Positions 1 to 18,370 of a stretch of DNA of 20,533 nucleotides are shown here, one piece after another (the stretch's first letter is position 1; every line of letters begins with the position of its first letter). A program made the position numbers and the translations under genes. Under the pieces are notes generated by a model that worked only from the letters and a program-made list of their open reading frames with translations, was not told the DNA's origin and ran no database searches. The DNA lies in the IMG/VR virus record IMGVR_UViG_3300033153_002816, positions 1 to 20,533 of that record; one strand, 5' to 3'. Origin of the DNA: a virus.

Positions 1-237
1 GTAGTAGAGTATGTTGCTAGTAGAACATTTTTACATACAGAAGGTGCTCCTGCTGCGACATGGACAATTAACCATAATTTGGGTTTTAAATATTGTAATG
101 TTGAAGTTATCGTTGGAGATGTATCTGTTGCTGGAACTTATGATGAACCCGTAATTACATTTGTAACTGTCAATCAGTTAACAGTTGAGTTTGATGCCGC
201 AACTGAAGGAGTTGCTCAAGTAGTTGGAGGGGATTAA
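1..237 (+). CDS. Phage appendage/surface protein, C-terminal fragment (5' end outside window)
   Basis: Frame 1 is open from the first base to TAA at 235-237, followed at once by a second in-frame TAA at 238-240. The 78 visible residues contain a W-T-I-N-H-N-L-G motif near residues 21-28, then alternating beta-strand-like segments ending in a short Gly-containing tail. This W-x-I-x-H-N-L-G type of beta domain is common at the C-terminus of phage tail fibre and other virion surface proteins, so a structural role is likely. The rest of the protein lies upstream of the window and its size is unknown. The second stop overlaps the ATG of the Cys-rich gene (A of ATG is base 240), so the two are probably translationally coupled. 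The assignment as appendage rather than head decoration is inference. Confidence 0.6.
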   Translation, partial: VVEYVASRTFLHTEGAPAATWTINHNLGFKYCNVEVIVGDVSVAGTYDEPVITFVTVNQLTVEFDAATEGVAQVVGGD

Positions 238-239
238 TA

Positions 240-1070
240 ATGGCAGAGCAAGAGTGGACAGCTCCAGATCCGATAACTTCTGGTGCTAATAGAGTTCGTA
301 AAAGAACAATACATTTCACAGAACTACAGGATGCAATAGATGCGTGGTTAGCTGCGTATGGTGAAGCTCCTACTGGTTTTACTGATAGTCCTGCCACCGG
401 AGTTAGAATTAAAGTAACAGCTATTACGGAGATGCAAGATGCGGTAGACTACTTATATGGTTTATCCGATGATCCGGGTTGTGCTGTTTGTGATGAAGAT
501 GTCCCTTGGGGATGGACAGTACCAATTCTAACGTCATCTGTTTTACCTGATCATATAAACGAAATACGAGACAATACAAATACACTACAAGATGAACATT
601 GTTATCTATGTGATCTGTGTGATGGTGATGATGGTTGTACTCTTTGTGATTCGAGTTGCCACGAGGACGCTTGTGAGACTTGTGATGCGAGTTGTAATGC
701 AGATGCATGTGATTTATGTGACAGTGGGTGTAATGGATATTCTGGTTGCAGTCATTGTCATTCTTCTTGTTATAGTAATTCTTGTGATACATGCAACTCT
801 ACATGTTATCAATGGGATACAAAAGGCTCTTGTAGTCTGTGTGATAATAAATGTTACAATAATTCTTGTGATACATGTAATACATCTTGTCATAGTGGTT
901 ATTCCACATGTTCATGCAACTCTACATGTTATAATGATGAAGAGGCGTGTTCACTCTGCCACAATGAATGCTATGAAGATGCCGTATGTGATACGTGTGA
1001 TGCTTCATGTAATGTGGACGCTGGATGTGATGCCTGTGATGGTGTGGCATATAGGTATCCTTGGACATAG
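240..1070 (+). CDS. Cys-rich repeat protein, putative substrate of the adjacent radical SAM enzymes
   Basis: A 276-residue acidic protein with 37 Cys. Residues 1-118 hold three related motifs of the form aromatic-T-x-P ... h-x-E-[LMI]-[QR]-[DA]: W6 to about 38 (HFTELQDAID), F47 to about 73 (ITEMQDAVD) and W92 to about 116 (HINEIRDN). I recall such motifs in bacterial and phage surface proteins. C81 and C84 form a CxxC between motifs two and three. From C121 the chain is almost wholly Cys repeats: C121/C124/C127, then ten units of C-x2-C-x3-C starting at 133, 145, 157, 170, 182, 198, 210, 224, 237 and 250 (the one at 224 is C-x-C-x3-C), and a last CxxC at 263/266. There is no signal peptide or membrane segment. 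Two radical SAM genes follow directly, which suggests post-translational modification, probably of a virion component. A plain metal-binding or disulfide-rich protein is the alternative. Confidence 0.8.
   Translation: MAEQEWTAPDPITSGANRVRKRTIHFTELQDAIDAWLAAYGEAPTGFTDSPATGVRIKVTAITEMQDAVDYLYGLSDDPGCAVCDEDVPWGWTVPILTSSVLPDHINEIRDNTNTLQDEHCYLCDLCDGDDGCTLCDSSCHEDACETCDASCNADACDLCDSGCNGYSGCSHCHSSCYSNSCDTCNSTCYQWDTKGSCSLCDNKCYNNSCDTCNTSCHSGYSTCSCNSTCYNDEEACSLCHNECYEDAVCDTCDASCNVDAGCDACDGVAYRYPWT
636..1037 (+). repeat. Degenerate tandem repeats encoding C-x2-C-x3-C units
   Basis: This stretch codes for the ten Cys units (residues 133-266 of the Cys-rich protein). The units often form A/B pairs: A begins C-[ST]-[LH]-C and B begins C-[DE]-T-C. 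Pairs are at residues 133/145, 170/182, 198/210 and 237/250; units 157 and 224 stand alone. Spacing between units varies from 4 to 8 residues. At DNA level an 18-base stretch is identical at 776-793 and 860-877, and a 20-base stretch is identical at 790-809 and 913-932. This points to growth by duplication or recombination. The repeat is coding and is neither spacer-repeat nor intergenic. Confidence 0.85.
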
Positions 1071-1074
1071 GGGG
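1069..1074 (+). promoter_or_regulatory. Ribosome binding site deciding the radical SAM start
   Basis: AGGGGG overlaps the TAG stop of the Cys-rich gene (1068-1070). Its spacing of 4 bases to ATG 1079 is acceptable, while ATG 1076 would be only 1 base away and TTG 1061 lies upstream of it. It therefore supports 1079 as the start. Confidence 0.6.
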
Positions 1075-1078
1075 AATG

Positions 1079-2185
1079 ATGGAAATAGTACACGGATTAG
1101 ATATAGATAGAAAAATTGTAGAAAAAGAATTATACACTTCCAAAAAGAAGGGTGCTTTTTTAAGATACGAAGGTGAAGATACTATTTTAGAACCCGATTT
1201 AAAAGTATGGAATAAGATACATAGACTCAATGAAGAATCAGTGGGATATTTACATGCGTTTTACCACATGACTAATGAGTGTAATAAACATTGTGACTAT
1301 TGTTATAATAGATATTTGTTATTACAACTTCCGGGAGATACGTCTACAGAAAAACTTATAAAAAGTCTAGATGCATTCGTTCCTTCTGAACCAAAAGATT
1401 TATCTAGTACCTCTTTAAAAGAATATGTATATGATGGTGTTCATCCTATGATTAAATTCGTTGGTGGAGAACCGACAGTAGCAGATAGTTTACCTTCTTT
1501 TATAAACCACATTACTAACACAAGACAAAATAAAATATATATTTATACAAACGGTATAAAGTTATTAGATGGAGATTATTTAAAACAATTTGAAAATACA
1601 AATAAAATAATGTGGTCTTTGAGTACTGATAAAAATACACCGGAAGATTTTATCAGAAGTGTAACAGAAAATTTAATAAAGTTTAATTTTGAATATGGAT
1701 ATAATATAGTTATAGGTAAAACAGAAGATACCATTCAAAAAAATATGGTGATTGATAAAATTTGTAGGAGTTATGAACCGCAGGAAATTAGATATAGAGC
1801 ATTAGCTGATCATGTAAAAGGAGAATCAGATCATCTGAGTTCTGTTATGAAATTTATAGAAAGAACTAGAGATATAACATATGATTACTTTTTAAATAAT
1901 GCAGACTTTGGTCAGAGTGGATATGTTTCTATTTTACCATATGATAAAACAGAAAATCCAAATACAGGTCATGTAACAATAGCAAAAATTCCTGTATGGA
2001 AACACACTATTGCAGAATCAATAAACAAATGGGGGTCTTTCATTATAAATTCTACTTATATCAATACAGCAGGTGAATGTCATATGAACTCTCCTGACTT
2101 ATATAGGTTTAGAATGAAACATACAGAGGATTATATTTCGGAAGGGACAAAAATCATATGGGGTAAACAAAACCCCTACTGTTAG
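1079..2185 (+). CDS. Radical SAM enzyme lacking a SPASM domain
   Basis: A 368-residue protein when read from ATG 1079. The radical SAM cluster motif C-x3-C-x2-C is at C68, C72 and C75 (N-E-C-N-K-H-C-D-Y-C). The SAM-binding G-G-E-P is at about 129-132, and a Y-T-N-G strand is near 156-159, all in the usual order. This predicts a [4Fe-4S] cluster that cleaves S-adenosylmethionine to start a radical reaction. The C-terminal half has no multi-Cys auxiliary cluster motif; it holds only scattered Cys and ends in Cys. TTG 1061 in the same frame overlaps the upstream gene, but AGGGGG at 1069-1074 sits 4 bases before ATG 1079, so I prefer 1079 (ATG 1076 is also possible). The stop is 9 bases before the next ATG. 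The substrate is not known; position directly after the Cys-rich gene suggests that protein. Confidence 0.85.
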   Translation: MEIVHGLDIDRKIVEKELYTSKKKGAFLRYEGEDTILEPDLKVWNKIHRLNEESVGYLHAFYHMTNECNKHCDYCYNRYLLLQLPGDTSTEKLIKSLDAFVPSEPKDLSSTSLKEYVYDGVHPMIKFVGGEPTVADSLPSFINHITNTRQNKIYIYTNGIKLLDGDYLKQFENTNKIMWSLSTDKNTPEDFIRSVTENLIKFNFEYGYNIVIGKTEDTIQKNMVIDKICRSYEPQEIRYRALADHVKGESDHLSSVMKFIERTRDITYDYFLNNADFGQSGYVSILPYDKTENPNTGHVTIAKIPVWKHTIAESINKWGSFIINSTYINTAGECHMNSPDLYRFRMKHTEDYISEGTKIIWGKQNPYC

Positions 2186-2194
2186 GAGAAGCAA

Positions 2195-3052
2195 ATGAAA
2201 ATAGTACAAGGTAATAATCCGATAAAAGAAATTTTAGATGCGAATCCTGATAAAAAAATTGGTAAGTTGAGTATTAATTATAATAAAATAAATGACACTG
2301 AACTTTCTATGCACGCAGGACATAAATATTGTATTAGTGAGCTTCGTGCTGCTGGGTGTGAAATTATTATATTAGAGTTTATTAATACTTATAATATGTA
2401 CAGAGGTATTTCCGAAGATGGAAGAGTACTCCTCCTTGTTAATCAAGAGAAAGTATTAGAACTTTGTGAATTAGAAGAGATAGATATAGATTATGTGATA
2501 TATGATGCACTGGATTTAAAAGCAAAACTAACTCCAGAGTTTATTAAACTAGTTGATGATAGATTACAAATAGAAAATTATAGAGTTAATTTAAATATAC
2601 CTGATGATATGTTTAAAATGATGCGAGCAGTCTGTTTGTTTGCAACTAGAAGAAAGAATTCAAAAGATATTACAATGGTTCGATCATATAAAAATGGGTC
2701 GGATACTTTTGCAATACAACACTATTTAAAAAAATATTTATCTTGTGATCTTTTAGTTGTAAAACCTTTGATGATAGAAAATACTAATATCCCATACAGT
2801 ACTTTTACCGATTTTAATCCTGATGCGGAACAATTTAGGAATTATTTTTATAGTATAACAAAACAAGATTTAATATCTGATCTAAAGAATACCAAATTAA
2901 AACTACAAAAATATGCTAGTGGTTTAAATGTACGCATAGACAATTTATTAATTACAAAGAAGTCAGAGTTTGTCGGGGAAAATAATGTGCTCATTGCATT
3001 ACGATTCAGAGGAATGTTTAACACATCACTTTTTTTTAATAACTTACTATAA
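2195..3052 (+). CDS. Putative PanC-like HxGH nucleotidyl-transfer ligase
   Basis: A 285-residue protein that I place, with caution, near pantoate-beta-alanine ligase (PanC) in the HxGH nucleotidylyltransferase superfamily. Visible support: a short M-K-I-V start and a K-I-G strand at 21-23; then H-A-G-H at 40-43 matching the ATP-binding HxGH motif; then a helix and a hydrophobic strand ending near I-N (about 55-64), as in PanC G-H-x-x-L ... V-x-I-F-V-N. Later come a Y-K-N-G-S-D segment, a helix, and V-V-K-P-L-M-I-E, which sit where PanC has its E-K-D-x-Q-Q and P-T-x-R-E segments. The family adenylates a carboxylate and forms an amide bond, so a role in making or attaching a small group is conceivable. 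The MSSRN-like loop is poorly conserved and catalysis is unproven. The gene is sandwiched between two radical SAM genes, with GGAG at 2185-2188. Confidence 0.5.
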   Translation: MKIVQGNNPIKEILDANPDKKIGKLSINYNKINDTELSMHAGHKYCISELRAAGCEIIILEFINTYNMYRGISEDGRVLLLVNQEKVLELCELEEIDIDYVIYDALDLKAKLTPEFIKLVDDRLQIENYRVNLNIPDDMFKMMRAVCLFATRRKNSKDITMVRSYKNGSDTFAIQHYLKKYLSCDLLVVKPLMIENTNIPYSTFTDFNPDAEQFRNYFYSITKQDLISDLKNTKLKLQKYASGLNVRIDNLLITKKSEFVGENNVLIALRFRGMFNTSLFFNNLL

Positions 3053-3065
3053 CGGGGGAATTTAA

Positions 3066-4442
3066 ATGGGAGTACCTAAACCAACAGGTACAACAATAGA
3101 TTTAACAGAGGCTTGTAATTTAGCTTGTGACTATTGTTTTACATGGAATGCTAAACATAAGAGAAAGAGTATCACTGAGGGGATGGCTAAGAAAATTATA
3201 AAGTGGTGGCTTCCACAAACAGATGATACACAAAATAACCAACTTTCTTTTTGGGGTGGAGAACCTCTTTTAGAATATGAGTTGATGAAAAAATTAGTAC
3301 GCTTTGCGTCCAACATGTGTGAACAAATCGGACACAAACCTTTAGAGTACGGTGGAACAACAAATGGATTACTCTATACTCCTGATAAAGTTGAATGGTG
3401 TTTAGAAAATAATTCTTTATTTATGGTATCACTAGATGGTATTCAACCATTGCATGATAAACACAGAATTCTACCATCAGGAAAGGGCAGTTGGAAAATA
3501 ATAGATAAAAATTTAAGAGCAGCATTAAAAATATTTCCCCAGCAAAAAATAAGATCATCATTAACAGATGATACGATAGAATATTTTTTTGAGAGTATAC
3601 AGTATTTTGTAGAGGACTTAGGTATAACAGATTTAGCATACTCTCCCGTGTATGAGAATGAATGGAATCAAAAATCATTAGATATATTGGCAGAACAGTT
3701 TGAACTGATAATAAACTTCGTAATTAAAAAAGCCAAAGAAGGTACTATTGTTAGCCTAAAACATCTCAATGATGAAGCAAATTTATCTGGAAAGAAAACT
3801 ATTCGTAATCCATGCGGTGCTGGTAGGGGTTATTCTGCATGGTCAGTAGATGGGTTTATGTTTCCATGCCATAGATTTAATAAGCATGGTATAACATCAT
3901 TCGTGAGAGCAAATCTTCCCACTATTATTGCGAAACCCAAAGGCAATTGGTTTGAATATTGCAATGAGGAATGGAGGAAATCATTTTATGAATGGAAAAA
4001 TAACGTTCCTAAACAATGTACTGATTGTGATATATTTGATAAGTCTATATGTAATGGTGGATGTTATGCTGTTAATTGGGACTTAACTGGTTCCTTATAT
4101 AAACAACCAGAGAGCGTGTGTAATTATAGTAGAGTTCAACATGAGGCTGGAATGAAATATAAAGAAGCAGCTAAGGAAGCAGGTATAGTTATACCCAAAT
4201 CAAAATGGGAACCACGGGTTAAAAAGAATAAAGGTTGTGTTTGTTATAATGCATGTTATAATGAAGGTACAGAGCAGGAAATTACACATATAGATAGAAG
4301 TACAGATATGTCTTGTGTGTGTTATAATGCTTCTTACAGTGGTGAGAAAAACCCACAACACAGAACAATACAAGAATTAGATAAACAACGTGCAGCAGAA
4401 CGAAGAATAATAGAAGCTGCTCAAAAGCTGATAAAGGAATAG
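3066..4442 (+). CDS. Radical SAM/SPASM maturase with substrate-like C-terminal extension
   Basis: A 458-residue protein. Radical SAM motif C17-x3-C21-x2-C24, G-G-E-P at 64-67, T-N-G at 99-101 and S-L-D-G at 122-125. The SPASM region has the expected seven Cys: C250-x12-G-x4-C268, then C318-x2-C321-x7-C329-x3-C333, and C352. The middle gap is x7 rather than the more usual x5. SPASM proteins bind two auxiliary Fe-S clusters and are typical maturases of RiPPs and anaerobic sulfatases. After about residue 375 an extra basic tail follows, carrying C391-V-C393-Y-N-A-C397-Y-N-E and C417-V-C419-Y-N-A-S423-Y, then a charged helix. The first motif has the same Cys spacing and following Y-N-acid as unit C224-C230 of the upstream Cys-rich protein. 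This ties the enzyme to that protein as its likely substrate. GGGGG at 3054-3058 is the ribosome binding site. Confidence 0.88.
   Translation: MGVPKPTGTTIDLTEACNLACDYCFTWNAKHKRKSITEGMAKKIIKWWLPQTDDTQNNQLSFWGGEPLLEYELMKKLVRFASNMCEQIGHKPLEYGGTTNGLLYTPDKVEWCLENNSLFMVSLDGIQPLHDKHRILPSGKGSWKIIDKNLRAALKIFPQQKIRSSLTDDTIEYFFESIQYFVEDLGITDLAYSPVYENEWNQKSLDILAEQFELIINFVIKKAKEGTIVSLKHLNDEANLSGKKTIRNPCGAGRGYSAWSVDGFMFPCHRFNKHGITSFVRANLPTIIAKPKGNWFEYCNEEWRKSFYEWKNNVPKQCTDCDIFDKSICNGGCYAVNWDLTGSLYKQPESVCNYSRVQHEAGMKYKEAAKEAGIVIPKSKWEPRVKKNKGCVCYNACYNEGTEQEITHIDRSTDMSCVCYNASYSGEKNPQHRTIQELDKQRAAERRIIEAAQKLIKE
4236..4346 (+). other. Substrate-mimic segment in the SPASM enzyme tail
   Basis: This codes for residues 391-427 of the SPASM enzyme. 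Two copies of C-V-C-Y-N-A-[CS]-Y are separated by 19 residues. The first copy, C-x-C-x3-C-Y-N-E, matches the shortened unit C-S-C-N-S-T-C-Y-N-D of the Cys-rich protein (DNA 909-944). The second copy has Ser for the third Cys and a Ser-Gly after the Tyr. It may be an evolutionary capture of a substrate repeat, a docking mimic, an auto-modified tail, or an extra metal site. Confidence 0.65.
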
Positions 4443-4445
4443 ATT

Positions 4446-5111
4446 ATGGCTGAGTGGATAGGTAGCCCTGATAATTATGAATCATCCAGTACAACTACAG
4501 TAGGCGCTCTTCTTACGAGTGCTAGGTATGATTTACAAGATAGAGGTGGTCAGAAGTGGGATGACGATCAGATGGTTGATTATATTAACCGTGTGATACA
4601 ATTGTTAGATAAACTTTTGATAGCACGAAATTCTGATTTCACAATAACACATAGTTCTACAACTCTAGCTGATGGTGACAATACCGTTTCCCAACCTTCT
4701 AGGAGTGTTAATGTTCTTGCAGTGTATCGTGGAATCCATTTAATTTGTAAAGCACCATTGATAGATGTAATGCATCGGTTCCAATCAAATGATGAAAATT
4801 CTAATACGGGCATACCTAATTACTGGTCACACAATGCAACTAATTTTTATTTTGATATTGAATCTGATGCTGATTATACTATAGATGCTTATTACCATGT
4901 CAAATCTGCCGTACTAACTATATTAAGTTACATGCCATACGATGATTATTTCAATGAGTATATAAGAGAGGCTCTCGTTGTTATGGCTACGAAAGCTAAA
5001 GAGGATAAACCAGTTAATGTTGATTTGTTATTTTTAGATATGTTTAAGCAAGCTGTAAATAGTATGGTTGTCGGACGTAACTTTGTAAAAAAATATAACT
5101 TGGGGTTTTAA
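4446..5111 (+). CDS. Phage adaptor-like head-tail connector protein
   Basis: A 221-residue protein. After a short Thr/Ser-rich N-terminus comes a helical segment with L-L-T-S-A-R-Y-D-L-Q-D ... K-W-D-D-D-Q-M-V-D-Y-I-N at about 22-47, the pattern of phage adaptor proteins (short helical bundle that joins portal and tail, often starting I-x-x-x-R-x-x-L-x-D ... W-x-D-x-E-L-x-x-W-I-N). A central beta part and a C-terminal helix (about 165-205) follow. No Cys motifs or membrane segments. It begins 3 bases after the SPASM gene stop with AAGGA upstream, and is followed by a second adaptor-like gene 1 base later. The family call rests on pattern and order only. Confidence 0.6.
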   Translation: MAEWIGSPDNYESSSTTTVGALLTSARYDLQDRGGQKWDDDQMVDYINRVIQLLDKLLIARNSDFTITHSSTTLADGDNTVSQPSRSVNVLAVYRGIHLICKAPLIDVMHRFQSNDENSNTGIPNYWSHNATNFYFDIESDADYTIDAYYHVKSAVLTILSYMPYDDYFNEYIREALVVMATKAKEDKPVNVDLLFLDMFKQAVNSMVVGRNFVKKYNLGF

Positions 5112-5112
5112 A

Positions 5113-5730
5113 ATGGCATATTCAGTAGCAAACGCAATCACAGAAATTAGAGCTTTAATAAATGAGCCTACTCCGGGGTTCTGGACTGATACAGAAATAA
5201 CTAATTGGATTAAAGAGGGCACTCTGGATTTGAGTACCAAATTGTTATGTGTTGAGAGTGAGGAAACTATTACTCTAGTTACTGATCAGTGGGTATACTC
5301 ATCCAGTGACGAGACGTGGTTAGGCACTTCATTAAAAGTAAAAGCATGTTACTATGATGATGATACTACAGCCAGAGGATTGCAACGAATAGACGTTCAG
5401 AAATTTGGTCATGTGCAGAACACGACAGGTAATCCTACACATTTCTATGAGAACAATAGGAAGTTTTACATATCTCCAACACCCACATCAACTCAAAATG
5501 GTAATGATATTACAGTTCTTGTTTCATCTGAGACTGATGATTTCACTGAGTTGCGAGATGAACACCAACCAATAGTCTTTTTATTTTGTGCATCTAAAGC
5601 CAAAGTTAAAGATAGGTTGTTTCAGGAATCAGCTTTATATTTAACACAATATATAAATACAATCAATCACGAAAGAAAAGACAAGTACGATTTCGGAACT
5701 GAGCCGTTTAGTAACTTCACATTAAAATAG
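5113..5730 (+). CDS. Second phage adaptor-like head-tail connector protein
   Basis: A 205-residue protein with the same N-terminal layout as its upstream neighbour: A-I-T-E-I-R-A-L-I-N-E-P ... F-W-T-D-T-E-I-T-N-W-I-K-E-G at about 8-37, typical of phage adaptor/connector proteins. The middle is beta-rich with an F-Y-x-x-x-x-x-K-F-Y-I-S-P-T-P segment near 115-130, as in related adaptors. A helix near 150-190 ends the fold. Two consecutive genes of this kind suggest two rings of the neck, as in podoviruses with separate adaptor layers, or a duplication. GGGG at about 5103-5106 serves as the ribosome binding site. Confidence 0.68.
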   Translation: MAYSVANAITEIRALINEPTPGFWTDTEITNWIKEGTLDLSTKLLCVESEETITLVTDQWVYSSSDETWLGTSLKVKACYYDDDTTARGLQRIDVQKFGHVQNTTGNPTHFYENNRKFYISPTPTSTQNGNDITVLVSSETDDFTELRDEHQPIVFLFCASKAKVKDRLFQESALYLTQYINTINHERKDKYDFGTEPFSNFTLK

Positions 5731-5733
5731 GGA
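5729..5733 (+). promoter_or_regulatory. Ribosome binding site supporting a TTG start
   Basis: AGGGA lies 9 bases before TTG 5743 and overlaps the stop of the preceding gene. The next in-frame ATG of the long gene is about 28 codons further in and has no comparable upstream site, so the rare TTG start is preferred. Confidence 0.45.
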
Positions 5734-5742
5734 CATACCGTT

Positions 5743-8454
5743 TTGACACAAAGAAATAAAAAGAAAGAACCATTTGAACCTATTAAAGCTGACGTACCAA
5801 AGATTGAAAACGTACCTCTAAAAGATGAGATGTTCAGTTTCAATGGTCAGTGGCTTCCGAGTGTTGATGCTGCTCTAATAGGTGCTGAAAATTATCAAGA
5901 GTTAACTAATATGCGTTATAACGAAGGTGGGATTGAGGGTGTTAATGGACACCACGACTTCAATTCCACAGCTATAACTGATAATATTAATATAAAAACA
6001 GGTTTACATTTTAGAACAAATAGAGATGACGACTCCTACATTTTAGTTCATGCTAAAGATGGAGATGATGATGGTAAAGTTTTTTATAGTACATCGGCAG
6101 TAGGAATTGCTGAAGGTACTGGAGCATTTAATGGCACAGCGTTACACACAGATGTTGATAACGATCTTACTGGTAGATTTAGTAATGGCCCATCTGGAGC
6201 CATAGCTTATTGTAATCAAAAAGAATCTCTTATTTGGGAGGGTACAGAGGCAGACATAATGACTCTGTTCACTACTGAAACAGCCGATCCAGATGCTGCG
6301 GCAGCTTATCCTATAGATAAAACAAGTGAAGTTAGAAATACCATAGTTGCTGATTACTTTCAAATAGATACCGCAGCCAGAGCAACAGGTATGGTTTTAT
6401 CAACAGCCCCATTACAGGGAATTAAATTATATATAGATCCTAATAATGTTAATGGTAATGCCGTGGGTACAGATGCTATCGTAGTTAAATATTGGAACGG
6501 TACTGCGTTTGCTGCTGTCGGCGGTCTTGCAGATGGAACTAGCAAATTAACTGAAACAGGTGTACTGTCTTTTAATAGTACAATTGATGTAGCGAAAGCA
6601 AAACATTATAAAGAGAGATATGCCTATGCATATACATGGGAAGTAACAGCCGATGAGGCAGAATGTTCAGCTAATATTTATCAGGTAACTGTTGACAAAC
6701 CCATGCAAACACCCACAAATATTTGGGATGGTATTTACAGACAACCTATTCAAGCACAAAGATATACTAATGCTACAGAAACATATGAAGATTTTACTGT
6801 GCATGTACACGAACCATCTACAATAGACATTCCCGTTGGTTTATATATGGGGCAATTGGCTGCTACTGGTCATATATTATTAATGTTTAATGAGGCTATG
6901 GCTGGTATTAAGTTAACTATGTTAGGTGATTTAGTAAATACAAATAACGCACAGTTTGATGCTACTGATGGGATACAATATTGGGATGGAAATTCATGGG
7001 CAAATTTAACATTTACAGATGGTACTCTAGATGCTACAGCAGATTCTAGCTGTGCTAAAACTGGATTGTTGTACTGGACTCCGCCTGACGATGAAGAACA
7101 GACAGAGTTATTTGGCACAATAGGATATGCATATAAACTTTCTGTGGATGCTGCATTTGTTGGTGCTGCTAGTAATGATGTTGTAATAGATTTAATAACA
7201 TCAATTCCAAAACAAACAGAACTAGAAGTATATAAGTTTCCAACTCAGTATAAAAACAAATTAATGTTTTGTGGTTATGTTGAGGGTAATGAGGGTAATA
7301 GAATTGATTTCTGTGTAGATAATAATCCTCACATGTGGAATGGTGTTGATAGTTCTGATGATGGGTATCAGAGTATATACGTGGGATCTGTTGAGGAGAT
7401 TACTGCTGCCCAACAGTTGTACAATAGATTTGGTTCTAACATTTTTAGTATGCTTGTCATTTTGAAAAATAATGAAGTGTGGTTAATGACAGGAGATACA
7501 CCAATAGATTATAAATTATTTCCTATTTCATTTAGAATAGGATGTCCTGCCCCCGGCACATTGTGTACAGCAGAAGTTGGATTTGAATTGGGTGAAAAAG
7601 TAGAACGTAATGTTGCTATGTGGATTAGTCATCAAGGGCCAGTTATGTTTGATGGTGCTGTATTACATCAAGTTAAAGGTGTAGAAAACTATTTTGATCC
7701 TAATGAATCAGACAGTGTTAACTTTGATTATTTTAATGAATCACAAGCATGGTTCGATAGTACATATAATGAATGGAACATTTTAATACCAACTGGTAAT
7801 GCGACCTATTTAAATACATGGCTCGTATATGATGTTAAAAAACAAAAATGGTTTAAAAAGAATACTAATTACGGTGAGATTATACAATGTGGTATACAAT
7901 CTATAGCCACAACTGGTGATCAGTTTATTTATGGTGGGTCTGATGATGGTAGACTGTATGAATTAGAAACTGGTAACAGTTGGAACGGTGCAAATATTGT
8001 TGGTGTAGTTACTGTTGGTGATTTCTTCCCAACAAAAAACCAATGGGATGAAACTCTAATACGAAGATTTAAATTAGTAACAAAGAAGATAGATGGTACG
8101 GCTGCTGTTAGTATTTTTTATAGGAAAGATACTGATACAGATTCTGGATTATCTATTGCGTGGTCGGATGTTACAGCAGATAAAGCTGTTACTGCTGCTG
8201 GATTAGCATTCACAGATGTTATTCCATCTCTATCTGATGACGGTGTAGCGGGGGTGTCATTTAGTTCTGCTCCGGCTAGTAGTTTAGATATGACGACAGC
8301 CGTTGGATCGAATAGATTAGTTAAAGTAACTAAAGATATGAATGAAATAGCATGGTCACATTCTTTTCAATTTAAATTTGAATCGGCTACTGATAAATTT
8401 GAACCCATTATGTGGGGTATTCAGAGTTCTAAGATACGTACAGAAATGAGATAA
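5743..8454 (+). CDS. Large tail nozzle/hub-like structural protein
   Basis: A 903-residue protein starting at TTG. The N-terminal part has G-A-E-N-Y-Q-E-L-x-N-M-R-Y-N-E-G-G-I-E near residues 45-64, like the start of podovirus nozzle and stabilisation proteins (P22 gp10 or T7 gp12 type), where a 'clean list of genome-specific loops' precedes a beta propeller. Residues about 500-770 have propeller-like strands (N-K-L-M-F-C-G, E-V-W-L-M-T-G-D, W-L-V-Y-D-V-K-K-Q-K-W-F). Two inserted domains are related to each other: about 205-330 and 368-497, each with Y-W-[ND]-G-x-x-[FW]-A then D-G-T and a later Y-A-Y. The position after two adaptors and before appendage genes fits a nozzle. The exact family is inferred from pattern and order. 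Confidence 0.65.
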   Translation: MTQRNKKKEPFEPIKADVPKIENVPLKDEMFSFNGQWLPSVDAALIGAENYQELTNMRYNEGGIEGVNGHHDFNSTAITDNINIKTGLHFRTNRDDDSYILVHAKDGDDDGKVFYSTSAVGIAEGTGAFNGTALHTDVDNDLTGRFSNGPSGAIAYCNQKESLIWEGTEADIMTLFTTETADPDAAAAYPIDKTSEVRNTIVADYFQIDTAARATGMVLSTAPLQGIKLYIDPNNVNGNAVGTDAIVVKYWNGTAFAAVGGLADGTSKLTETGVLSFNSTIDVAKAKHYKERYAYAYTWEVTADEAECSANIYQVTVDKPMQTPTNIWDGIYRQPIQAQRYTNATETYEDFTVHVHEPSTIDIPVGLYMGQLAATGHILLMFNEAMAGIKLTMLGDLVNTNNAQFDATDGIQYWDGNSWANLTFTDGTLDATADSSCAKTGLLYWTPPDDEEQTELFGTIGYAYKLSVDAAFVGAASNDVVIDLITSIPKQTELEVYKFPTQYKNKLMFCGYVEGNEGNRIDFCVDNNPHMWNGVDSSDDGYQSIYVGSVEEITAAQQLYNRFGSNIFSMLVILKNNEVWLMTGDTPIDYKLFPISFRIGCPAPGTLCTAEVGFELGEKVERNVAMWISHQGPVMFDGAVLHQVKGVENYFDPNESDSVNFDYFNESQAWFDSTYNEWNILIPTGNATYLNTWLVYDVKKQKWFKKNTNYGEIIQCGIQSIATTGDQFIYGGSDDGRLYELETGNSWNGANIVGVVTVGDFFPTKNQWDETLIRRFKLVTKKIDGTAAVSIFYRKDTDTDSGLSIAWSDVTADKAVTAAGLAFTDVIPSLSDDGVAGVSFSSAPASSLDMTTAVGSNRLVKVTKDMNEIAWSHSFQFKFESATDKFEPIMWGIQSSKIRTEMR

Positions 8455-13891: not shown

Positions 13892-16800
13892 ATGACTAAA
13901 GCAGAAGCGGAAGCCTTTTTAGATTCCAGTAGTGCCCCTGTTGAAAAACAGAGTGGGAGAATGTCTGCGGAAGAAGCGGCAGCATTTCTTGATAAGCCAA
14001 AAGATAATGTTATATCTTATGTAGCTAAAGAAGTTGCAGCCACTCCTCGTGTAGTAGGTTCAACACTGGCTGGATTAGTGGCTTGGCCTATACAAAAATC
14101 GTATGGTATTATGACCCTCGCTACAGGTGGGACAGCAGAGGAAGCATATGCATCTGAAGAGTTTGTTGCCAGTAAGATACCTAAATTTTTACAGCCTAAA
14201 TCCGGTGCTGAGAATGCTGCTATAAATAAGTTGGGTGCTGCTATGGAAGTGGCATTGAAACCCGCTACCATGGCTGGTGAGGCATCAACAAAGAATTGGG
14301 GTAAACGTGCAGGATATATTACTACATTGGTAAGTGAATTATTAATGTTTAAAGGTTTACATAAAGCAGGTACTGCTGGTAAAATTAATCTTAAAACAAA
14401 GAAAGCCTCAGAGCAAGTTCTGAAAAAGAAACTCCAAGCTCTCACACCTGACGAGAGATTCTATATTAAAGAACTGGTTAAAGAACATAAAATAAAACCG
14501 TTCAAACCTAAGAAAAAAGATAGAGAAGAGATAGAGAGGAAGATGCAGGAGTCTGATCCTGAGAAACAGAATGTAGAAACTACTCTAATTAAGGAGGCAT
14601 TTGAACAAGAGTTCTTAGATAAGAAAGTAGTCGAGAAAGTAAAAGAAAAAGTAGAAAAGAAAATAGAGAAAAAGAAATTAAAGAAAGAAGAAAAGAAGGT
14701 AGTAAAAGAAAAAATAGAAGAGGAAGTAAAACCAGAAGTAGAGAAGAGAGAGGTAGTTACTAAACCAACAAAATCTTCTGATATAAAATTAAAGAAGGAA
14801 GATGTAAAACAAAAACCGAAGGAAGTAAAGTATTCTTATAATCAATTAGATACTCCTACTATACGTATGCTCGGTGGTAATACATACACAGGCACACCTC
14901 TTACTAAAGCGTGGTCTTTGTCTAAGCACACAGAGAAAATGCGTAATGAAGTACGTGCGTCCTTTGAGGTAGCGAAAGAGAAAGCCCGTAAAGCAGGAGA
15001 AGTATTAAAGGTAGAAGAAGCAAAGAGTGGAGATGTAGTAAAGAGATATACAAAAGGATTCAATGTTAAAGGTAAGAAAACCAAAGACTCCGGTTATGTT
15101 TCTATGGATGTTATAGGTGAAAGAAAAACTACGTACACTAATGTTAAAGGAGAGAAGGTAACAACTACTATTGCAGAAAGAATTATTGATGCAAAGAAAC
15201 AACGGATAGTAAAACAAGGAAAGAAAGCTGAGAAACCTGTTGTTGTAAAAGATCCAACAAAAGGACTACGTGAAAAAACACCCCAAGACACGGAGGTATT
15301 TAGAAAACTAGTTCCTATTGATACGAATAAGAAATCTAAAACATTTGGTAAGGAAATAACACGCAACAATATAGCTATTAAAGTAGTTAAACGAATTAAA
15401 AACACCAGTATGTTAGCGAAAGATTTCTCCTATGATATATTAAACAACGTAGCGAGAGATGCTATATGGAAGTATGTTAGAAAATTAGATCCCACTGATG
15501 TAGATGCATTCTTAAATGGTAAAGTAACCAGCAAGATAAAGGGTACTGCATATAAGGCAGCCGAAGGTGCTGTTAAAAACCATATCAAAAAACAATTGGG
15601 AGTGAAGCAGGGTAAGACTCGACACCGTGTTGATAAAGAACTAAAGAATCAAACATTCAGAGAAGCAAAAGAATATAAAGAAGATGGTGGTAGAAGTGGT
15701 TCCATTGAAGAGGGTGCGGAAGCTCCTAGTTCTGGCAAGTCAGTTAGAGATAAGTATCTAGGGAAGAAACAAACTGATGAGGCAGCTTACAAAGAAGTAA
15801 AAGACACAGCTTCTAAACCTAAAACCTTAACTAAAGAAGAGTATCTCAAAGCTAAAAGCAAGGAAGCTGCTGCTGAAGCTACAGTGAGAGACAAAACACA
15901 AGCAGAATATAAGAAGAGTTCCGAGAAATTTAAAACTCATAGACCTACCAAAGCGAGTAAGAAAGGTAAGACAACTAGAGCTGAAAGAAAGAGAGAACAA
16001 TTAGCAATACAAGCAGCAACTAAGGCTTCCATTGGTGCTGGTAGTAAAGCAATTACAAAAAAGAAAGTTAAGAAAGTAAAGGAACATCCAGTAACAACTG
16101 AAGGTGGTACTACTCTATATAGTGGATTTCCATTACACAAAGCAGTAGAAGCATATATAAAACATACGAAAGGTAATACATGGGAACACTTAGCTGAGAG
16201 AGTATTTCCAAAAGTTATGGATAAGATACCTCTGATTGGTAAGCCTATCAATAGGGCTTTACTATATAAGTACAGAGGAACCATGAAGAAAACGAAAAAG
16301 TTTATGAATAGCATGGAAGACATGCAACGCCATCAGGCTGTTGGTAGGGAGTACGCTATCAATCTTGGTAACAGATTGCAAGCATTGCCAGAAGCAGCTC
16401 AGTTGAAGGTAGCTCAGAGTATTAAGGGGAAGATGCCCGAGAATATGAGTAAGCTAGAGAAGGCTCTAGTTACAGAGGTACGAGATACATTCATCGCTTT
16501 AGGTAAACAAGCTACTGATTTAGGTTTATTAAATAAGAAAACTTTCTTCAAGAACGTAGGAAAGTATATGCCTAGATTGTATACTAGGATGGAGTATAAA
16601 AAATTAATAAAAAGATATGGAGAGCAAGCACCAGATACACTAGGATTAGATAGGTTTCAATCCCGATTAGATTTAACTAAGGAGAGAAGAAAAGCTCTTG
16701 GTGAGATACTAACTCCGGGTTATCCTGTAGCTAAAGGTATCATTCAGTTAACTCATGATATAGAGATGGGTAAATTCTTTTCGGAAATTTCTAAGAATAA

Positions 16801-18370
16801 GAATTGGACTTTCAATCCTAAGTCTAAGAAGGCTATACCCAAAGGCTTTAGAAAATTACCTATGAATAAAAGATTAGGTAAGCTATCTGGTCAGCGTGTA
16901 CATGCAGAAATATATGAAGATATTACTGCTGTTATACGGGAGCAATCTAAAGGAGAACGAACCAGAGCGAAGATGTTAGCAGCATGGAAGTTTGGTAAGG
17001 TAGTACTATCTCCAAAAACACATGCTAGGAATATGATGTCTAATGCTATCCTCGCTCATCTTGGAGGGATGCCTCTTTATGAACAACCTTACTTTTTATA
17101 TAGAGCAGCTCAAGAAATGCGTGGTAAAAAATCTTATTGGGTAGCAGCTAGTAAAGAAGGATTGATGAAGAGTACCTTCACACATGCTGAATTGAAATCC
17201 ATGTTCCGAGACGTTGAAATACAACTGAAGGGTGCTAAAGCTGGTAGTATGGCAGAGAAGATGGGTACAATAGGCAACCTATGGGAGAAAGGAAAGCAAG
17301 GTGCGTCATGGGCTGCTAAGAAATATGAAGCAGAAGAGCAATGGTTTAAGGTAGCTAAGTTTATACACAACGTAGAGAGACGCAAGATGCCGTTTAAAGA
17401 GGCGGCAATAGATGCGGAGAAATGGCTATTCAACTATTCTAAAGTAACAAAAGCACAACATAAGTATAGAACTAAATGGTACGGTGCTCCATTCGCTACA
17501 TTCACAATGAAAGCAATGCCTAGAATAGCGGAAGCTGCGGTCACTACACCACATAGATTCTTATTACCTGCTGCTATGATATATGGATTAGAGCAGGCAG
17601 CAATGGAGTTTGTTGGTGATACTCCAGAACAATATGAAGGGAAGAAAGAACATCGACCTGATTTCATGAAGGGTGGACTGACTAAATATCTTCCTAGTTT
17701 TCCACGAGTTCCATTCATAGATGATGATGGTAGAGAACACTATCTGAGTCTGTCTTATATATTACCGTGGGGTGATATAGCAGAGAGTGGTGGATTTGCG
17801 GGAGTGATTCCCGGTGGTATATCTCCATTGGGTATGCCAATGGTTAGTGAGTTAGCACAGCAAGCTACTACTCGTGGTTATGATTTTTTTATGCAGAGAG
17901 ATATAGTTCCTGAGACTGAACTCGCTGGTAAATCTACTATGGGTAAAATTAAAACACATGCGAAATACAGAGCAGCACATCTTGCTAAGACAGCATTACC
18001 TACCCCTATAATTGGGGCAGCTAAAATATATCAGGCTGGGAAAGGTAAGGTGAATGCGAGAGGTAAGGAGAGGGCTGCTAGTCTAGTATTACTAGATGAA
18101 TTATTAGGACTCAAAGTATATCCTGTGGATTACGTGGATCAAATGGTCAGGACAGTTGGTAAGATACACCCGAAGAAAGGTATGCTAGCCGGTAGGATTA
18201 AAAGACAAATCAAAACTATGCATATTAAAAGGTCAGCATTAAAGAAAAAGGGTAGGAGTTATAAATATATAGACGAACAAATTGAAGGGAAGATAAAACA
18301 ATTAAAAGGTTTGGCAAAAGAAGTATCTGAAAAAGGTAAATCATTTAGCAAAATAAAGGGGGACAAATAA
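13892..18370 (+). CDS. Giant multidomain internal virion / large polyvalent-type protein
   Basis: A 1492-residue protein. Two short related motifs open it (E-A-E-A-F-L-D at about 5-11 and E-E-A-A-A-F-L-D at about 26-33). Then come a hydrophobic helical region (about 50-165) and a K/E-rich linker (about 236-313). A related motif occurs twice, G-G-N-T-Y-T-G-T-P-L-x-K-A near 325 and G-G-T-T-L-Y-S-G-F-P-L-H-K-A near 736. Between them, about 506-614, is a helical segment with a loose sigma-70 region 2 look. From about 1030, S-P-K-T-H-A-R-N-M-M-S-N begins a helical domain to about 1240 ending in A-P-F-A-T-F-T-M-K; this resembles the helical domain near the end of large phage polyvalent proteins. 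Likely packaged in the virion and ejected with DNA, as T7 gp16 is. No lytic transglycosylase motif was identified. Confidence 0.6.
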   Translation: MTKAEAEAFLDSSSAPVEKQSGRMSAEEAAAFLDKPKDNVISYVAKEVAATPRVVGSTLAGLVAWPIQKSYGIMTLATGGTAEEAYASEEFVASKIPKFLQPKSGAENAAINKLGAAMEVALKPATMAGEASTKNWGKRAGYITTLVSELLMFKGLHKAGTAGKINLKTKKASEQVLKKKLQALTPDERFYIKELVKEHKIKPFKPKKKDREEIERKMQESDPEKQNVETTLIKEAFEQEFLDKKVVEKVKEKVEKKIEKKKLKKEEKKVVKEKIEEEVKPEVEKREVVTKPTKSSDIKLKKEDVKQKPKEVKYSYNQLDTPTIRMLGGNTYTGTPLTKAWSLSKHTEKMRNEVRASFEVAKEKARKAGEVLKVEEAKSGDVVKRYTKGFNVKGKKTKDSGYVSMDVIGERKTTYTNVKGEKVTTTIAERIIDAKKQRIVKQGKKAEKPVVVKDPTKGLREKTPQDTEVFRKLVPIDTNKKSKTFGKEITRNNIAIKVVKRIKNTSMLAKDFSYDILNNVARDAIWKYVRKLDPTDVDAFLNGKVTSKIKGTAYKAAEGAVKNHIKKQLGVKQGKTRHRVDKELKNQTFREAKEYKEDGGRSGSIEEGAEAPSSGKSVRDKYLGKKQTDEAAYKEVKDTASKPKTLTKEEYLKAKSKEAAAEATVRDKTQAEYKKSSEKFKTHRPTKASKKGKTTRAERKREQLAIQAATKASIGAGSKAITKKKVKKVKEHPVTTEGGTTLYSGFPLHKAVEAYIKHTKGNTWEHLAERVFPKVMDKIPLIGKPINRALLYKYRGTMKKTKKFMNSMEDMQRHQAVGREYAINLGNRLQALPEAAQLKVAQSIKGKMPENMSKLEKALVTEVRDTFIALGKQATDLGLLNKKTFFKNVGKYMPRLYTRMEYKKLIKRYGEQAPDTLGLDRFQSRLDLTKERRKALGEILTPGYPVAKGIIQLTHDIEMGKFFSEISKNKNWTFNPKSKKAIPKGFRKLPMNKRLGKLSGQRVHAEIYEDITAVIREQSKGERTRAKMLAAWKFGKVVLSPKTHARNMMSNAILAHLGGMPLYEQPYFLYRAAQEMRGKKSYWVAASKEGLMKSTFTHAELKSMFRDVEIQLKGAKAGSMAEKMGTIGNLWEKGKQGASWAAKKYEAEEQWFKVAKFIHNVERRKMPFKEAAIDAEKWLFNYSKVTKAQHKYRTKWYGAPFATFTMKAMPRIAEAAVTTPHRFLLPAAMIYGLEQAAMEFVGDTPEQYEGKKEHRPDFMKGGLTKYLPSFPRVPFIDDDGREHYLSLSYILPWGDIAESGGFAGVIPGGISPLGMPMVSELAQQATTRGYDFFMQRDIVPETELAGKSTMGKIKTHAKYRAAHLAKTALPTPIIGAAKIYQAGKGKVNARGKERAASLVLLDELLGLKVYPVDYVDQMVRTVGKIHPKKGMLAGRIKRQIKTMHIKRSALKKKGRSYKYIDEQIEGKIKQLKGLAKEVSEKGKSFSKIKGDK

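Follow-up and report, generated by a model that had tools for sequence, protein, structure and literature searches.

In PapA/PapB and the other ranthipeptide systems (NF047865; SCIFF/CteB), a radical S-adenosylmethionine (SAM) enzyme with a SPASM domain is encoded beside a Cys-rich substrate. PapB forms Cys-to-Asp/Glu thioethers in CX3D motifs (PMC9413430). Thioethers are likewise formed by QhpD on a protein subunit, QhpC, which is encoded in the same operon and is a structural part of a larger complex, the quinohemoprotein amine dehydrogenase; this bacterial enzyme subunit has a 28-residue leader and receives 3 crosslinks (PMC7876137). In phages, radical SAM proteins of the same superfamily (phrog_1802 and annotated proteins of the phages CR5 and phiEaH2) lie in structural gene blocks and have been annotated singly; a link to Cys-repeat proteins is absent from the annotations and papers that were found. 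Here, we analyze a 20,533-base stretch of viral DNA, which is the entire IMG/VR virus record IMGVR_UViG_3300033153_002816 and is called the window hereafter. Positions 240 to 4442 are occupied by four plus-strand open reading frames (ORFs) with intergenic gaps of 3 to 13 bases, encoding a Cys-repeat protein, a radical SAM enzyme (rSAM1), a protein with an HxGH motif that resembles pantoate-beta-alanine ligase (PanC), and a PapB-like radical SAM/SPASM enzyme. Comparison with other viruses provides strong sequence evidence that the pairing of a Cys-repeat gene with a SPASM enzyme gene is conserved across phages, and it is probable that the four genes form a phage-encoded maturation cassette modifying a virion protein, mainly by thioether crosslinks. 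The features of the cassette are as follows; loci in other genomes are numbered with the prefix L.

240 to 1070, plus strand: Cys-repeat protein of 276 aa with 37 Cys, the presumed substrate (ORF; homologues in L040 and L139)
240 to 596, plus strand: its non-repeat N-terminal region, a candidate virion anchor or leader according to its sequence, common to L040
600 to 1037, plus strand: its Cys-repeat region with units C-x(1,2)-C-[DNH]-x2-C-[NYH] and 35 Cys in residues 121-266
1050 to 1067, plus strand: its conserved C-terminus YRYPWT, a candidate recognition tag, in which Y-x-Y-P-W-T is invariant in the window, L040, and L139
1076 to 2185, plus strand: rSAM1, 369 aa, lacking a SPASM-type Cys set (PF04055 2e-6; CxxxCxxC at 1280-1303)
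2195 to 3052, plus strand: PanC-fold HxGH protein, 285 aa (HAGH at 2312-2323, residues 40-43)
3066 to 4442, plus strand: PapB-like radical SAM/SPASM enzyme, 458 aa (NF047865 6.5e-59; phrog_1802 8e-37)
4236 to 4343, plus strand: substrate-like C-terminal tail of the SPASM enzyme, following the catalytic part, with CVCYNACYN and CVCYNASYSG

The original prediction of four adjacent, closely spaced genes on one strand was borne out, with all ORFs present. Searching viral contigs with the four proteins one at a time returned no relatives, and relatives were therefore reached through an alignment of the SPASM enzyme; initial scans with Cys patterns gave either nothing or low-complexity noise. The alignment yielded 80 viral loci that were chosen by the enzyme only, at which genes were called as longest ORFs; the IMG/VR contigs among them are predicted viruses, some of them fragments. 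When a Cys-repeat gene was defined as having at least 11 Cys in 60 residues, one was found on the same strand at 51 of the 67 viral SPASM loci left after dereplication, in 42 cases within 1.5 kb. Such genes thin out with distance, from 49 of 237 genes within 1.5 kb of the SPASM gene to 12 of 368 beyond 3 kb (Fisher 6e-12), and the count on the strand opposite to the viral SPASM gene was 0 of 165. Cellular SPASM loci, a control that is not similarity-matched to the viral set, had a Cys-repeat gene in 1 of 40 cases. The pairing also held in the reverse direction: a search by the repeat DNA pattern CxC[ND]xxC[YF]G alone gave ten viral contigs (five of them already recovered from the enzyme side), nine of which carry a relative of the SPASM enzyme, while on the tenth a radical SAM gene of another kind lies two genes away from the Cys-repeat gene. 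Cys-repeat proteins that regularly occur without a radical SAM gene had been named in advance as what would speak against the predicted system; a radical SAM gene was present on 10 of 10 contigs found by the repeat alone. Furthermore, loci with similar enzymes also tend to have repeats of similar composition (Mantel rho 0.48, a value reached in none of 2000 permutations), a correlation that could come partly from shared phage ancestry. Taken from sequence, these patterns suggest that the Cys-repeat neighbor is the substrate of the enzyme.

They also bear on the possibility of an ordinary virion fiber whose Cys residues form disulfides or bind metal, with the radical SAM enzymes acting on another target, such as tRNA, DNA, or a small metabolite. 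The Cys density of the repeat region (22%) would suit metal binding or disulfides, and the similarity of rSAM1 to known enzymes is of a general MoaA/viperin-like kind. We nevertheless regard this explanation as improbable: the pairing is seen from both search directions and fades with distance, the SPASM class is specific to peptide maturases, and the enzymes themselves carry substrate-like Cys segments.

The SPASM enzyme shows the features expected of such a maturase. Its CxxxCxxC motif is found at 3114-3137 and its auxiliary-cluster Cys residues at 3813-4121, and it scores 46.2 bits against Radical_SAM PF04055, exceeding the cut-off of 29.5. C17, C21, C24, and GGEP are invariant in the alignment, so that both the radical SAM and the SAM-binding motifs are in place, and the auxiliary-cluster set is complete (C250, C268, C318, C321, C329, C333, and C352 align with known maturases). 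PapB is the best family match: the maturase model NF047865 covers residues 9-345, although with 199.8 bits the enzyme stays under the equivalog cut-off of 340. Among enzymes of solved structure, CteB is nearest in sequence (5wgg, 1.4e-26). The C-terminal tail may serve as a docking copy or pseudo-substrate, or the enzyme may modify itself there. Its motif C-x-C-x3-Y, or a close variant, is retained in L039, L040, L041, L043, L044, L046, L122, and L139, whereas the enzymes of L048, L050, and L081 instead begin with CxxC runs that resemble their neighbors' repeats, and that of L056 has such a run at its C-terminus. In the 19 enzymes whose extension bears Cys, the likeness of this extension to the repeats of the enzyme's own neighbor was above expectation (mean rank 16.6 of 53, p 0.0013). 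A BLAST comparison of the window's tail with the window's own repeats was not significant (E 0.63).

The presumed substrate begins with 120 residues that lack the repeat and contain three imperfect copies of a motif IR..hTElQDAID; a similar motif is found in the Cys proteins of L113. The repeat region that follows consists of about 11 units, with the general form C-x(1,2)-C-x3-C in the series of Cys gaps. The Cys repeat is not a product of chance, and a 63-base, two-unit DNA pattern occurs 4 times, versus 0 times in 100 shuffles. In the window's repeats Asp is enriched at C+1 (13 versus 6.1 expected, p 0.001) and at C+4 (10 versus 4.3 expected, p 0.001), the latter in the CX3D geometry that is known from PapA/PapB. 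The Y-x-Y-P-W-T motif is the end of the Cys proteins of the window and L040 and lies within three residues of the end in L139. As had been proposed, the presumed substrate is a large repeat protein rather than a small leader-core peptide, with 276 aa here and 736 aa in the fusion of L122; a short precursor with separable leader and core was not found in either.

Based on analogy to these known enzymes, thioether formation is the most likely main modification. In the proposed mechanism, the PapB-like SPASM enzyme, aided by rSAM1 and the PanC-fold ligase, would modify the Cys-repeat domain of the adjacent protein during virion assembly. One thioether would be made per unit, from the unit's first Cys to the Asp or Asn after its second Cys, amounting to about 10 crosslinks in total, and the crosslinks would make the soft, Cys-rich chain rigid and redox-proof, as a rod or knot in the tail or head-tail region. 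A carboxylate would probably be activated with ATP by the PanC-fold protein, which would add or join a small group. Compared with the ranthipeptide systems, the cassette thus has a large repeat substrate, without the short leader-core design, and adds the second radical SAM gene and the PanC-fold gene at a phage structural locus, while the acceptor residues vary among the phage relatives. From QhpD/QhpC it differs in that the phage protein is a repeat of about 10 units.

Alternatively, the neighbor may be the substrate while the product is something other than a thioether, for example C-C crosslinks, epimerized residues, or groups that are added with the PanC-fold ligase and, in sister cassettes, a GNAT-like protein. 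The repeat types vary widely by locus (CxCNxxCY, CSGTCSG, CExxCExx, and CVxRT), which makes a single acceptor residue unlikely, and one cassette can hold up to four radical SAM genes together with HxGH and GNAT-like genes, suggesting more than one reaction. On the other hand, Cys is the sole residue that is kept across all repeat types, and the best-matching characterized enzymes of the SPASM component (PapB, CteB, and QhpD) make Cys thioethers. We therefore consider a non-thioether product the lesser prospect, though the strongest among the alternatives. A distinct repeat type, with a conserved C-x-x-R-T motif, adjoins SPASM genes in L051 (11304-12245) and L117 (4990-5874).

Several observations weigh against a thioether-forming maturation cassette. 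Asp and Glu together make up just 3-4% of the repeats in the close relatives L122 and L049, where Asn and Tyr fill those places. A universal Cys-to-Asp acceptor is thereby ruled out, and either the acceptor residue is not the same everywhere or the bond is of another type. The proposal that the locus has the known thioether-forming layout fits the enzyme, but not all repeats offer Asp/Glu acceptors. The tail of the window enzyme is of the CxC type while its own repeats are mostly CxxC, with a similarity rank of 42 of 53. In the Cys protein of the window itself, Pfam and PHROG scans recognized neither a tail nor a head domain. Moreover, 16 of the 67 viral SPASM loci lack a Cys-repeat gene, some of them being fragments, and among enzyme pairs below 40% identity the correlation of repeat and enzyme is weak (rho 0.12, p 0.044).

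With regard to the cassette as a whole, its SPASM enzyme is most similar to those of L139 (53% identity), L039 (51%), and L040 (46%), the latter two being the nearest of the 80 viral loci. L139 (JAEHCK010000153.1, 9.8 kb) comes from a genome scan and is assigned to a Thermoplasmata archaeon in its record. The contig opens partway through a Cys-repeat gene, followed by rSAM1, HxGH, and SPASM genes in exactly the order of the window, so the search for the four-gene neighborhood suggested by the original prediction was successful. Downstream of this cassette are genes for a portal, a head protease, and a major head protein of the T4 type, and because of these the contig is probably a viral one that was binned wrongly. 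Since this head set is T4-type and the window has SU10-type adaptors, the cassette is present in phages with different head modules. L040 carries genes for the Cys protein, the HxGH protein, and the SPASM enzyme, with a terminase next to them. Its Cys protein (5162-6016) is 39% identical to that of the window across the whole length (E 7e-36), and the non-Cys N-terminal part alone matches with E 1.4e-14, indicating homology of the two proteins rather than shared Cys content. A larger sister cassette, comprising SPASM, HxGH, and GNAT-like genes and a second SPASM-type radical SAM gene, is seen in L041, L043, L044, L046, and L122; in all of these except L044, tandem paralogous virion-like genes were also observed, with the Cys repeat on the last one. 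In Campylobacter phage CP220 (L011), radical SAM genes and a gene with a nucleotidylyltransferase domain are clustered near baseplate and portal genes, without a nearby Cys-repeat gene. The fecal ‘Bacteriophage sp.’ records L003 (MT837846), L007 (MT836984), and L009 (MT835472) were rejected as phage relatives, as they have SCIFF-like peptides beside the maturase and look bacterial.

As for the other two genes of the cassette, rSAM1 starts at ATG 1076 (a TTG at 1061 is also possible) and scores 28.5 bits against Radical_SAM, just under the cut-off of 29.5, with a general viperin/MoaA-type level of similarity. Its homologues in L139 (45%) and L113 (42%) each adjoin Cys-repeat genes. The window's HxGH protein, which is 28-29% identical to its homologue in L139, had no Pfam family match, and its pantoate-beta-alanine ligase score stayed below the cut-off. 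Even the best-scoring homologue, in L039, reached just 15.1 bits against PF02569 (cut-off 20.7) and 12.2 against TIGR00018 (cut-off 212.75). Modeled alone, the window protein had a predicted local distance difference test (pLDDT) score of 35. The homologue in L043 was modeled from an alignment of eight homologous sequences with a pLDDT of 78, and all 29 significant Foldseek matches of this model in the PDB were pantoate-beta-alanine ligases (VIA-align Z 14.3). The window and L139 proteins were tied to the L043 group by a profile comparison of groups without shared sequences (probability 69%, E 4.6e-5). Thus, the predicted PanC-like ligase stands at the level of the fold, and for a homologue, whereas the family score of the window protein does not reach the cut-off. 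Likeness to PanC lies in this fold and in the HxGH motif, and the gene context is unrelated to pantothenate. A second PanC signature, which we take to be GLxxSSR, is seemingly kept in L039 and L040 but not in the window or L139.

As to where the Cys-repeat proteins act, several relatives have the repeat fused to recognizable tail proteins: to Tail_P2_I in L106 (4e-11), to a tail-fiber-J-like domain in L112, and to a baseplate protein adjoining a Baseplate_J gene in L127. In prophage-like loci, Cys-repeat genes occupy the tail-fiber position. A tail or head-tail role is therefore likely for these proteins in general. In the window, the cassette is preceded by a virion- or decoration-like gene and followed by SU10-type adaptor and virion-type genes, which places it inside the structural block, in agreement with the original prediction. 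This location and the tail-protein fusions in relatives suggest indirectly that the window's Cys protein may be part of the virion. The flanking genes are as follows.

1 to 237, plus strand: C-terminal part of a virion structural/decoration-like gene, cut by the window edge (phrog_30556 1.4e-10)
4446 to 5111, plus strand: SU10-type adaptor protein 1 (PF24175 3.3e-13)
5113 to 5730, plus strand: SU10-type adaptor protein 2 (PF24175 1.6e-10)
5743 to 8454, plus strand: large virion protein (phrog_3287, virion structural, 1e-3)

The gene at 1 to 237 also matches phrog_16122 (virion structural, 4.5e-6) and phrog_2647 (head decoration, 8e-5), and the protein at 5743 to 8454 has a weak match in L041 (E 2e-4), which lies directly downstream of a Cys-repeat gene there. 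This setting has to be weighed against a cassette that makes a secreted antimicrobial or signaling peptide, that is, a ribosomally synthesized and post-translationally modified peptide (RiPP), carried by the phage as a passenger and not as part of the virion. The layout is like that of ranthipeptide clusters, a Methylocystis plasmid has a PapB-like gene beside a freyrasin-family gene, the Cys proteins of jumbo phages resemble leader plus core, and the cassette of L040 includes an MFS-like gene. However, the window cassette has no adjacent peptidase or ABC exporter, its substrate is 276 aa long and substrates elsewhere reach 736 aa, repeats are fused to tail or baseplate proteins, and the loci that were read in detail sit inside structural blocks. 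A secreted product is hence given little credence.

Cys-repeat genes beside radical SAM genes are also found in cultured jumbo phages, namely Cronobacter phage CR5, Erwinia phages phiEaH2 and Wellington, and Salmonella phage pSal-SNUABM-04, which makes the hypothesis testable now. Each of these four phages has a tandem pair of ORFs (127-143 aa, 20-23 Cys) adjoining a pair of radical SAM genes in the structural region, and the ORFs of the latter three are homologous to the CR5 pair. In CR5 (L180, NC_021531), the Cys-repeat ORFs (3163-3555 and 3537-3968) are unannotated and lie beside CR5_154/CR5_153; a short gene, CR5_157, has been called on the opposite strand where they lie. Searches of the open literature, which did not extend to most subscription journals, yielded no account that links phage Cys-repeat proteins to radical SAM enzymes; this is hence no proof of novelty. 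Searches among named phages gave no match to the window's Cys protein, its HxGH protein, or the 903-aa protein.

A broader proposal, to which we give about even chances, is that many tailed-phage lineages staple their own tail or head-tail repeat fibers by thioethers, that the cassette is mobile between unrelated phages, and that the enzymes' built-in repeat copy aids recognition or is itself modified. In that case, viral structural proteins would undergo a class of post-translational modification that has not been described before. If the maturation reading is true, phages would build particle parts by radical chemistry on substrates with dozens to more than 100 Cys, far beyond known RiPPs. 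It would also give a role to radical SAM genes that phage annotations leave without function, would offer a large natural collection of maturases paired with their repeat substrates, and would be an enzyme source for crosslinked protein fibers.

Further along the window, positions 13892-18370 encode a 1492-aa protein that resembles structural proteins of Cellulophaga phage phi38:1 and of one Caudoviricetes record only weakly, and that from its sequence is probably a large virion or ejected protein.

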